A stretch of DNA of 64,000 bases from Methanoregula sp. (GTDB taxonomy: Archaea > Halobacteriota > Methanomicrobia > Methanomicrobiales > Methanospirillaceae): NCBI RefSeq assembly GCF_028712425.1, contig NZ_JAQTQD010000008.1:1-64000 (forward strand), in the 5' to 3' direction. This document shows positions 10,992-54,945 of this stretch, piece after piece; position 1 is the stretch's first letter, and each line of letters starts with the position of its first letter. A model generated the notes under the pieces. It worked only from the letters and a program-made list of their open reading frames with translations. It was not told where the DNA came from and made no database searches. The position numbers and the translations under genes are program-made.

Positions 10992-11777
10992 ATGGACAAG
11001 AAAAAGGTCAGGGACTACATGACCTATGACGTCATCAGCGTGGACTTAAACGGAGCGGTAAGAGACGTCATTGACAAGATCCAGAAGACGAACCACGACG
11101 GATTTCCTGTTGTCGATGGCACCCGGGTTGTCGGGTATATCTCTGCCCGCGACCTTTTGTTTATCCAGGCTGACGCGCCCATTGACCAGGTTATGTCCAA
11201 GAACCTCATTGTCGCGGACCCGGACATGGATATCAATGATGCAGCCCGGGTCATATTCCGGAGCGGGATCCAGAAGCTCCCCGTGGTGGACGAGAAGAAC
11301 AACCTGCTGGGGATCATCTCCAACGCCGATGTGATCCGTTCCCAGATCGAGCACGTCTCCCCGGAAAAGGTCTTCAATTTCATGTCCACGCTCAAGAAGC
11401 TGTACAACGTCGATCCGAGCCTTGACCGCGGGACACTTCCCGTAAAAGACCTCCTGCCCACCCAGTCCAAAGTGTACGAGGACGAACTGGAAGGCCGGAT
11501 TTACGAGATCCGTAAGGGACTAGCCGAACCGATCATCGTTGTCCGGCGCCCGGGCAGGACTATCCTCGTAGACGGGCACCACCGGGCCATCGCGGCTAAA
11601 AAACTCGGGATAACAGCCCTCGATTCGTACATCATCGACATCAAGGAGGACATCGAGCTTGGCCTTGAACGTACTGCACAGGCCATGAAACTGAGAACAC
11701 TCGATGATGTGCAGGTACTCGACTATGCACGGCACCCGCTTGTTGCGATCACGCACCGCATCGTTAAACGCGATTGA
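10992..11777 (+). CDS. CBS-domain protein with ParB-like C-terminal domain
   Basis: Residues 1-120 are a tandem CBS pair (VRDYMTYDVISVDLNG; then VMSKNLIVADPDMDIND), which normally binds an adenine nucleotide. Residues about 140-230 resemble the ParB/sulfiredoxin-like nuclease fold: the PIIVVRRPGRTILVDGHHRA block carries the conserved GHHR. Such fusions occur in methanogens; ParB-type domains can be CTPases, nucleases or kinases. The stop codon TGA lies within the first hairpin of the tandem array described next, so the array is likely part of this mRNA's 3' end. Confidence 0.82.
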   Translation: MDKKKVRDYMTYDVISVDLNGAVRDVIDKIQKTNHDGFPVVDGTRVVGYISARDLLFIQADAPIDQVMSKNLIVADPDMDINDAARVIFRSGIQKLPVVDEKNNLLGIISNADVIRSQIEHVSPEKVFNFMSTLKKLYNVDPSLDRGTLPVKDLLPTQSKVYEDELEGRIYEIRKGLAEPIIVVRRPGRTILVDGHHRAIAAKKLGITALDSYIIDIKEDIELGLERTAQAMKLRTLDDVQVLDYARHPLVAITHRIVKRD

Positions 11778-11990
11778 AATCGCGTTTCACCACTCGGAGG
11801 CCTGATGACCTCCTCGTTCGTTAAGCGTGATTGACATCACGCTTAACAACTCACAGGTCTGATGACCTGTTCGTTAGCGAAGAGAGACTGACATCTCTCT
11901 TCTTCACTCTCAGGTCTGATGAACTCCTCGTTCATTAACCGCGATTGAGATTGCATTTAACAGCTCGCATGCCTGAGGGCATTCATCGTC
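11764..11990 (+). repeat. Four-unit tandem array of paired hairpins
   Basis: Four units of 53-61 bases start at TTA at 11764, 11821, 11874 and 11935. Each has a long stem with a TGA-containing loop, then a short stem usually carrying CTGATG(A) in its loop, then TCGTTC or similar. Long stems are AAACGCGA/TCGCGTTT (loop TTGAAA), AAGCGTGAT/ATCACGCTT (loop TGAC) and GAAGAGAGA/TCTCTCTTC (loop CTGACA); the fourth is mismatched. Short stems include GGAGG/CCTCC, ACAGGT/ACCTGT and ATGCC/GGCAT. Arm sequences differ between units while pairing is kept, suggesting selection on structure. The array lies between convergent genes. A composite terminator, a small RNA or a protein-binding RNA are all possible. 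Confidence 0.75.
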
Positions 11991-12035: not shown

Positions 12036-13214
12036 TTACGACCCGTTGCACCGCAGGTCGTACTTGTCGTTGAGCACATGCTCTTTCACAACAGTCTCTT
12101 CCGGCACGACAACCTCCGGCCAGAGGCGGGTCTTAGAGTGGACGACAACTTTGTTCCGGAGGACAACGCGGGGGCCGATCACGGTGTCGTTCTCAATGCT
12201 GCAGTGATCCCCGATATGCGTGTCGTTGTCCATGATGCTGCCGGAGACCGTGCTGTTTGCACCCACGATGACACGATTATAGAGTGATGACGAGAAGATC
12301 TTGGCATTGTTCCGGATGATGCACTTCTCGCCTATCGTAGTATACGGCCCGATCAGGACATTATCGCCAATCGTCGTTCCCGACCCGATGGCCACCGGGC
12401 CGATCACCCGGGTGTTCTTCCCGAGCGTGATGGACCCGCCAAGGTGGACGGGGCCCTGCACCTGTGCCCCGTGCATGGAGAGGTCGCCGATGATATCGGT
12501 GAAGTCGATACCCTGGAGCTTCCAGCGCTCTGCCTGCCGGAGGGAGTGGGGGCTGCCGACATCGGTCCAGTTCCCTCGTGCCAGCCATCCTTTCAGGGAC
12601 TTGTTCTCTTCCATCAGCCGGGGGAAGAGGTCGCGGGCAAAATCATACTTGATGCCTGCCGGAATGTAATCAAAGACCTCGGGGCTGCAGACATACATGC
12701 CGGTGCTTGCGAGGTTGCTGAAGATCTCTCCCGGCCCCGGCTTCTCCTTGAACCGTTTTATCTCGTAGCTGGCATCGATCTCCGCAATCCCGTACTCACC
12801 CGGGTCATCAATGGAGATGAGACCGATGCTCACCGTTGCCTTCTCTTTCTGGTGGGCCCGGTAGAACTCGAGCACGTTTAAGTCCGTGACATGATCGCCG
12901 CCGACAATAAGGAAGTCCTGCCCGTCAAGGTGTTCCTGGGCGTTTTTCACGCTGCCGGCGGTTCCGAGCTTGGTCTCCTCGTGAACGTAGGTGATCTCGG
13001 CACCAAAGAGCGACCCGTCGCCCAGCGCTTCTTCGATCGCCTCACCCATATACCCAAGGGTAAGGACCACTTCCCGGAACCCGAGGTTTGTCAGGTGTGC
13101 AACAAGGTGCTGGATGGAGGGGCGGTTGACGATAGGGATACAGGGCTTGGGCCGTTCGAATGTAAGAGGGCGGAGACGGGTGCCTTCTCCCCCGCACATG
13201 ATACACACCTTCAT
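12036..13214 (-). CDS. NDP-sugar pyrophosphorylase with hexapeptide-repeat domain
   Basis: Residues 1-230 are a nucleotidyltransferase domain with the signature MCGGEGTRLRPLTFERPKP and the metal-binding GGDH at about 105. Residues about 245-370 are left-handed beta-helix hexapeptide repeats (VRHLGG-type: LGKNTRVIGPVAIGSGTT). This architecture fits mannose-1-phosphate guanylyltransferase or glucose-1-phosphate thymidylyltransferase-like enzymes that make nucleotide sugars for glycans; the sugar cannot be read from sequence. It ends with a short non-repeat tail. The gene faces the hairpin array at its 3' side. Confidence 0.85.
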   Translation of the reverse strand: MKVCIMCGGEGTRLRPLTFERPKPCIPIVNRPSIQHLVAHLTNLGFREVVLTLGYMGEAIEEALGDGSLFGAEITYVHEETKLGTAGSVKNAQEHLDGQDFLIVGGDHVTDLNVLEFYRAHQKEKATVSIGLISIDDPGEYGIAEIDASYEIKRFKEKPGPGEIFSNLASTGMYVCSPEVFDYIPAGIKYDFARDLFPRLMEENKSLKGWLARGNWTDVGSPHSLRQAERWKLQGIDFTDIIGDLSMHGAQVQGPVHLGGSITLGKNTRVIGPVAIGSGTTIGDNVLIGPYTTIGEKCIIRNNAKIFSSSLYNRVIVGANSTVSGSIMDNDTHIGDHCSIENDTVIGPRVVLRNKVVVHSKTRLWPEVVVPEETVVKEHVLNDKYDLRCNGS

Positions 13215-42389: not shown

Positions 42390-42540
42390 GAGCCCCGACA
42401 CCACTCCGACGGAGGGGCTCGGATCAAACCCCCCTCCCGGTTCGTTTCATGTGCTCCTGCCAGGAAAAAATGGCGATCGGCAGTTCGAAGAAGGCCTTCC
42501 CGGCCTTCTTCTCTAGCTCCTACTGCCGTTCCGGCAGTAG
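42390..42540. other. Three successive hairpins, possible structured RNA
   Basis: Three strong inverted repeats lie within 150 bases: GAGCCCC/GGGGCTC (42390-42420, loop 17), GAAGAAGGCC/GGCCTTCTTC (42487-42511, loop 5) and CTACTGCCG/CGGCAGTAG (42520-42540, loop 3). No long T-run follows, so plain terminators are unlikely. The block is GC-rich inside an AT-rich island. Confidence 0.45.
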
Positions 42541-53598: not shown

Positions 53599-54945
53599 TC
53601 AGGTCCGCCGTGAGAAGGAGACGATCCGGTCGATCAGCTTGTACTGTTCGCCCGAGTAGAAGAGTACTGTTGTCACGACCCGTTCGGCACTCCGCGTGCC
53701 GGTCACGGTGACCTCGGTCATCCCCTGCGACGGGAGGAGGTGGTCGGAATCGGTTGTCCCGTCCGGGTGGAATACTGTCACTTCAATATCTTTTACTACG
53801 TTCCGCGACGGGCCGGCGACGCTGACCGTCACGTCCCCGGTCACGACATCTTTGAACACCTCAAAGTGAAGCGTGTACTGGGGAGGCAGGACGTCGACCT
53901 GCTCCGGTGTTTCAGTGGCAGCAGTTGGAGCGGGGACTGCCGGCGCGGGAGCAGCGGTTTCTGTTTCAACAGGTTCTGGAGAGGGGGTTGGGGCGGTTGT
54001 TACGACCGTCGTAACAGTGGCAACGGGCGTTGCCTGCATCCCGGTTTCCTCTGTTCCGGACGGGCCGGGACCCGTCAGCAGGGGGAGCAGGGCCACAAGC
54101 GCGATGGCAATCACGATGAACGCGGCAATGAGCCCGATGATAAAAAAAGTCTTTTTTGAAGGGGCAGGTTTTCGTGGTGCCGGGGTTTTTGTTGCGGCTT
54201 CTTTTTTCGGTGTTGTCGTGGCGGCGGCAGGACGTTTCTGTGGAACAGGGCTGGTTGGTTCTTCCGGCTCGAGCCCGAGGAGGAGTTCGTCCACCGGGCC
54301 AGTACACGATTCTGTTGCGATCATCGCAGGCGCGGATTCCTCTGTCACAGATTCCGGTGCTTCTTCCGGTTCTTCCGCGAATTCTTCTGCTGGTTCTCCC
54401 TCCAGCACATCTCCCGGTTCTTCTCCAAATTTGTCTTCCGGCCCTTGTGCCGGTTCTACCGCGGGTTCTTCTGCCGGTTCTTCTTCAAACCTTTCTTCAG
54501 ATCCTGGTTCCCGTTCCTGGACCGGTTCTTCAGTAGATTCTTCTTCCGGTTCGTCCCATGACTCAACTTCCTGAACGGGTTCCGGTTCGAGTCCCTCGTC
54601 TGTGACCGGTTCCACAACACCGGCATGCGGGGCTGCCACAGTAACCGGTTCTTCTGTTACGATGAGTCCCCGGGGGAGGACGGGTTCTTTGGAAACGGGC
54701 CGGGCACTGGCAGGAGGAGACGGGGCGGGCGGTTCTGGTTTCTTCACCGGGTCGCCGCAGTTGTCGCAGAAGCGTGCATTGGGCAGGAGGGGCGTACCGC
54801 AGGAACGGCAGACCGGTGCCTGGACCGGGGCTGATGGAGGGGGGATCTGCTCACCGCATTTTTCGCAGAAACGGTTGCCGGCAATGACCGGGGAGTTGCA
54901 GGCAGGACAGGTGGACGCGACCTCAGGCGCCCGTTCTTCGCGCAT
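53599..54945 (-). CDS. Double zinc-ribbon membrane protein
   Basis: ATG 54945 begins a 448-residue protein. Two zinc ribbons occupy the first ~70 residues (CPACNSPVIAGNRFCEKC; CRSCGTPLLPNARFCDNC). A long Pro- and Glu-rich disordered region (about 70-260) with repeats of EEPxEEPxxEPE type follows, then one membrane helix (about 273-295: FFIIGLIAAFIVIAIALVAL) and an extracellular beta-domain (about 350-445) after a Thr/Pro stalk. The ribbons are cytosolic. It may connect an internal partner to a surface domain. Confidence 0.75.
   Translation of the reverse strand: MREERAPEVASTCPACNSPVIAGNRFCEKCGEQIPPPSAPVQAPVCRSCGTPLLPNARFCDNCGDPVKKPEPPAPSPPASARPVSKEPVLPRGLIVTEEPVTVAAPHAGVVEPVTDEGLEPEPVQEVESWDEPEEESTEEPVQEREPGSEERFEEEPAEEPAVEPAQGPEDKFGEEPGDVLEGEPAEEFAEEPEEAPESVTEESAPAMIATESCTGPVDELLLGLEPEEPTSPVPQKRPAAATTTPKKEAATKTPAPRKPAPSKKTFFIIGLIAAFIVIAIALVALLPLLTGPGPSGTEETGMQATPVATVTTVVTTAPTPSPEPVETETAAPAPAVPAPTAATETPEQVDVLPPQYTLHFEVFKDVVTGDVTVSVAGPSRNVVKDIEVTVFHPDGTTDSDHLLPSQGMTEVTVTGTRSAERVVTTVLFYSGEQYKLIDRIVSFSRRT

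Follow-up and report, generated by a model that had tools for sequence, protein, structure and literature searches.

A four-unit hairpin array at a gene end in Methanoregula belongs to a dispersed, REP-like repeat family

The window analysed here, a stretch of 64,000 nucleotides from a Methanoregula genome, carries at positions 11761-11988 a tandem array of paired hairpins, which is one diverged and tandemly multiplied copy of a dispersed intergenic repeat family. The family unit consists of two adjacent stem-loops, H1 (GAAGA...TCTTC) and H2 (typically CAGGTC-ATCA-GACCTG), whose arms keep pairing while their sequences change. The family is REP-like but not a REP, a label chosen because two marks of REPs fail, namely the tag and the Y1 transposase. 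We consider it rather probable that the array as a whole represents a REP/BIME-like copy whose structure acts at the level of DNA and which was multiplied by duplications of a gene end.

The array comprises four units, as the original prediction had it, each of exactly 57 nt rather than of 53-61 bases. All are read on the minus strand. Unit 1 (11761..11817) contains H1 at 11763-11790 and H2 at 11796-11813; unit 2 (11818..11874) contains H1 at 11820-11847, with 12 perfect pairs, and H2 at 11853-11870, with seven. Unit 3 (11875..11931) has H1 in the family form at 11879-11902 and a decayed H2 at 11910-11927, and unit 4 (11932..11988) combines a decayed H1 (11935-11960) with H2 at 11969-11982. 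Three perfect long stems had been described; those of units 2 (12/12 Watson-Crick pairs) and 3 (9/9) are indeed perfect, and that of unit 1 has 11 of 12. The long stem of unit 4 is imperfect, with eight Watson-Crick pairs, one G-T and one A-C. The short hairpin is sound in units 1, 2 and 4, and the GA/GA internal loop around H2 is kept in all four units. Units 1 and 2 differ at two stem pairs, with both arms altered, and more two-sided changes are seen in related genomes; the partner arms thus co-vary, as had been claimed. The array folds far better than expected both as RNA (z about -7 on either strand) and as DNA (z -7.7 and -7.1 on the two strands), and in either case none of 200 shuffles equals it.

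The array sits between two gene ends, those of a CBS gene on the plus strand (10992..11777) and of a convergent sugar-1-phosphate nucleotidylyltransferase gene on the minus strand (12036..13214), the latter assigned from its open reading frame and domain matches. The CBS gene ends in K-R-D-stop, codons that supply both the loop and the 5' arm of the first hairpin, and its TGA at 11775-11777 lies within the loop of the long hairpin of unit 1, in agreement with the earlier placement of the stop codon. The open reading frame of the CBS gene codes for two CBS domains (E 4.9e-26) followed by a SerK/ParB-like C-terminal part. A ParB domain, by which the protein had been named, is not confirmed: Pfam reports the two CBS domains and ParBc_2 only below threshold (E 0.045), and SerK is the better clue, being the best NCBIfam match for residues 159-218 (E 1.6e-5, itself far under the model cut-off). 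From these matches, the product may be a CBS-regulated SerK-like protein (SerK being an archaeal ADP-dependent serine kinase) rather than a ParB-like one.

A search of the array DNA against its own genome revealed three arrays and, at other places, several exact but short matches, which share a common plan of H1 followed by H2 (TTCGAAGAA..loop..TTCTTCTCGTCCTCCAGGTCTGATGACCTGTCGG). A covariance model built from 12 genomic units, with the window units left out, finds, over the window, unit 3 (34.6 bits, E 2.2e-10) and unit 2 (25.6 bits, E 3e-7; 32.3 bits in a further model search); unit 1 gives a weak match at 11773-11817. A second, single copy lies in the window at 42484..42536 on the minus strand (20.5 bits, E 2e-5; also 26 bits, E 3.2e-5). 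Among the best 150 candidates scored with the covariance model, more than 140 copies in the own genome have E below 1e-4, a number that is a lower bound, and they occur as singles, as inverted neighbours and in tandem, the longest arrays having ten units or more. With tens to more than 100 further copies in several relatives, the suggestion of a short repeat family that spread, also in tandem, is borne out, and the proposed covariance-model search and look after other genes show the structure to be dispersed and no peculiarity of the CBS gene. Several repeat arrays lie close to, or right at, the ends of contigs that are short (L017 end (C34), L016 start (C37), L214 (C36), L216 (C43) and L221 (C46)); such arrays probably break the assembly, leaving copies undercounted. 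In four loci an extra hairpin, CAGGAGAAGGTC..GACCTTCTCCTG, interrupts the 3' arm of H1 (L189 2501-2572, L195 2501-2572, L221 1855-1926 and L179 2745-2816). A palindrome with the same GA/GA internal loop, GAAGG-GA-GGC..GCC-GA-CCTTC, often stands beside units (L229 ~2560-2660, L268 ~12260-12400 and other intergenic regions).

Nearly all own-genome copies lie outside predicted genes. According to crude, in-house gene calls, 27 of 66 copy-bearing regions are situated between convergent genes, compared to 21 of 124 other intergenic regions (P 4e-4), and regions between divergent genes are depleted of copies (P 0.04). The copy-rich genomes are those of Methanoregula G000, G040, G042, G043, G044 and G110, together with G065 of a sister genus; in other Methanoregula genomes the family is scarce or absent. 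Of 20 copy-bearing regions fetched from the relative G043, 14 correspond to regions of the own genome that also bear copies, far more than the three or so expected from the fetched genome share by our estimate, such that recent movement is unsupported. In some of these pairs the alignment runs across one shared element that has changed on both arms, and the copies have thus largely been inherited in place. Insertion polymorphism was sought in 20 kb of window synteny in four relatives, with no family match except the CBS array and no clean empty site. A search of the literature on Methanoregula repeats returned nothing relevant.

Maintained pairing of the stems is supported, covariation lying well above shuffled and slid controls in the own genome and in others. 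When 150 copies, 136 of them distinct, are aligned, 95.2% of the cells are paired versus 79% after shuffling, and covariation among the 150 same-genome copies amounts to 0.385, compared to 0.127 for shuffled and about 0.05 for slid alignments (0/500 reaching the observed value). A set of 150 copies drawn mainly from other genomes exhibits 97.6% pairing and a covariation of 0.433 (0.127 shuffled). The copy alignments were fitted to the model, and the slid and shuffled controls and an outer stem absent from the model agree with these values. This outer stem extends H2 through the conserved GA/GA internal loop, which surrounds H2 in 67 of 107 hairpins: the three pairs beyond the loop are Watson-Crick in 78, 80 and 79 of 107, with 46, 39 and 31 expected, and they co-vary. 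Around H1 the GA/GA loop is present in 75 of 101 cases, and the closing pair of H1 is C-G in 103 of 112. H1 loops belong to the GNA, GNNA or GNAB type in 53 of 112 cases when read on the GA strand and in four of 112 when read on the opposite one (mean 11.7 and maximum 23 after shuffling), and GNNA-class loops have a pyrimidine in third position in 17 cases, compared to 11 GNRA loops.

The GA/GA and GNA/GNNA signatures can be read on one strand only, which in the window is the minus strand, antisense to the CBS gene. The pairs are almost purely Watson-Crick, with scant G-U; among about 3,700 pairs there are 79 G-T and 59 A-C (P 0.11), counts that are biased by the model strand and by RNA scoring and for which a tRNA control of only 13 genes gives five versus one. 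In copies from other genomes the GA strand has 44 G-T versus 20 A-C, a lean that could point to RNA, and one that a model with RNA scoring itself favours. Among copies flanked by co-directional genes, the GA strand is the gene strand in 23 and the opposite strand in 21, which speaks against an mRNA element, as such an element should not ignore orientation. A T-run precedes the copies on the GA strand in only seven of 128 cases, and in the single-contig genome G110, with about 100 copies only, there is no clear replichore switch. In DNA, GNA and GNNA loops closed by a C-G pair have exceptional stability, and tandem G-A mismatches are stable in DNA as well as in RNA; on thermodynamic grounds the pyrimidine-third GNNA loops suit DNA better than RNA, without proving it. 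Strand-limited loops, GA/GA mismatches, random orientation, the stability of such loops in DNA and the lack of a clear wobble signature together favour a DNA-level structure, and we hold with moderate confidence that it is at the level of DNA that the structure is important or is kept up.

Rfam at its gathering cut-offs finds a single match in the window, a tRNA, and none at the array; relaxed cut-offs add nothing, and on eight copy-bearing loci there is one chance-level match (E 2.9). The resemblance of CTGATG to a C/D motif had already been discounted as a guide RNA, and rightly so: these letters are the closing pair and loop of the short hairpin, one among many loops. A box C/D sRNA is not indicated, there being no guide bracketed by a C box (RUGAUGA) and a distinct D box (CUGA) and no Rfam match. 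A CRISPR array, with constant repeats and unique unpaired spacers, was rejected, as what varies here is not spacers but the palindromic arms of the stems.

The history of the CBS locus can be followed in part. H1 and H2 stand after the CBS gene in L082, L084, L085, L086 and G110, all from copy-rich genomes; copy-poor relatives (L083, L087) have at most an H1-like stem of A-rich last codons and a T-run. Unit 1 reads CGCGA/TCGCG in the own genome and CGTGA/TCACG in G110, so that both arms differ while the residues encoded by the gene stay as they are. A lone random-looking unit, which the original prediction gave as the mark of a chance local duplication, is not what the relatives contain: behind this gene they have the arrangement seen in the window, with additional changes on both arms, and because of this, and because the window-free model finds units 2 and 3, the array is not a chance local duplication. 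The window units read AAACGCGATTGA, AAGCGTGATTGA, AAGAGAGACTGA and AACCGCGATTGA, coding for K-R-D-stop, and the changes in units 2 and 3 are synonymous. Compared with the real gene end, unit 3 has four of 12 bases changed, all synonymously; only 18 of 40,095 sequences at that distance, and for unit 2 only 15 of 594, would be all-synonymous by chance. The L085 gene ends in K-R-V-stop, and all three L085 units read K-R-V-stop. The synonymous-only differences suggest successive gene-end duplications, and on the simplest reading each downstream unit would once have been the gene end or have been copied from it. The identities between units give no clean order of duplication.

The closest known counterparts are the bacterial REP/BIME elements with GTAG or CGTC tags (PMC3733652, PMC2817692), which are likewise short intergenic palindromes in over 100 copies per genome, enriched between convergent genes and occurring as alternating-orientation pairs and arrays. 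Their preference for the ends of convergent or co-directional genes is shared by the present family. The Methanoregula family differs in being archaeal, in combining two different hairpins with GA/GA loops per unit, in lacking a conserved tag (among 272 distinct units, four have GTAG and 48 have CGTC) and in its copy-rich genomes lacking a Y1 transposase. The Y1/RAYT family PF01797 was found in five known genomes used as a control and in none of nine copy-rich genomes, two of them single-contig, and neither a mobilising enzyme nor a ligand was found. CGTC-type REPs also seem to be without a dedicated transposase (PMC3733652), and thus the missing Y1 enzyme is not unique to the present family. 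RepRanger (PMC12306157), a computed survey, reports REP-like sequences in archaea; its palindromes are generic rather than two-hairpin units, and its main text makes no mention of Methanoregula. The mitochondrial double hairpin or repetitive hairpin elements (PMC2800124) also comprise adjacent hairpin pairs, dispersed between genes, patchy among relatives and with tandem forms, yet they are organellar and unrelated in sequence, so that the parallel is structural only. The sponge elements keep their stems and vary their loops (PMC2800124), whereas the Methanoregula family varies its stems and keeps its loops and flanks.

In the explanation that we favour, which builds on the observed family, pairing, intergenic and convergent placement and lineage limits, single-stranded DNA exposed in replication or repair would fold on the GA strand, with GNA/GNNA loops, tandem G-A mismatches and outer H2 arms pairing beyond the GA/GA loop. 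The arms would stay complementary through template switching between them and/or through a putative protein that binds the folded hairpin. A repeat unit would have become joined to the CBS gene at its 3' end, and the last 57 bases of the gene would then have been duplicated in tandem several times, turning older gene ends into units 2 to 4, each H1 arm hence still reading K-R-D-stop or nearly so. A tentative extension is an archaeal analogue of REPs with an undescribed architecture, in which two GA-flanked hairpins on one strand would be recognised as folded single-stranded DNA by a putative non-Y1 protein, with complementarity kept at the DNA level; at one gene it would repeatedly have duplicated that gene's end, so that earlier ends are preserved as a record that can still be read. 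The same features could instead be a purely mutational product, functionless hairpins kept perfect by template switching and spread by duplication. Template switching in replication has been reported to give rise to perfect stems that change on both arms, and to keep them perfect (PMC8794818), from which it follows that covariation alone is no proof of selection, and the nearly pure Watson-Crick pairing and the tandem and inverted arrays fit. Yet the unpaired GA/GA and GAAGA base stay constant while the stems vary, and one loop class is preferred on one strand, so that template switching alone appears insufficient; we regard this alternative as possible but doubtful.

An RNA-level element, with transcript hairpins selected, for instance, as protein-bound 3'-end, stability or processing signals, is unlikely. 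The strong covariation, the frequency of copies at gene ends, the seven copies that follow a T-run and the excess of G-T over A-C on the mRNA strand of the CBS gene (seven versus two) would suit it; the random orientation, the overall near-parity of G-T and A-C, the antisense position of the GA strand at that gene, the lack of an Rfam match and the many sister genomes without the family argue against it. The narrower proposal of a selected 3'-end RNA regulating the ParB-like gene is not supported, as most copies are elsewhere, orientation is random, G-U is not clearly favoured over A-C and the signatures are antisense. That the array arose independently of the dispersed repeats, by tandem duplication of a terminator-like hairpin at the end of the CBS gene, is improbable: L083 and L087, with only their H1-like stem and T-run, speak for it, but the model built without the window scores unit 3 as above and the L085 array at 36 bits, GA/GA surrounds H2 in all four units, and H1 with H2 was seen after the CBS gene only in copy-rich genomes. 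Least probable, and largely refuted, is a classical REP/BIME moved by an IS200/RAYT-type Y1 transposase, which would account for the short palindromes, high copy number, intergenic position, inverted neighbours and arrays, but not for the absence of PF01797 from the nine copy-rich genomes or for the lack of a conserved tag.

Archaeal high-copy REP-like families of defined architecture have been little described, and the present one, whose varied copies number in the hundreds across several relatives, has Watson-Crick pairing and no usual transposase. It is thus a good test case for whether selection on RNA is required for stems to change on both sides or template switching of DNA suffices, and for how hairpin repeats spread without a Y1 enzyme; it also warns against taking covariation alone as proof of a functional RNA. 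Another family of the order has a weakly similar unit, TCGAAGCCCTTCGGGCTTCTCATGCTCCGGTTCTAGTGAACCGTCGCA, with a few occurrences in each genome (L059, L289 (G037) and congeneric genomes). Within the window, positions 54354-54484 contain a degenerate tandem repeat with a period of 12 (CCGGTTCTTCTG) in about 11 copies.
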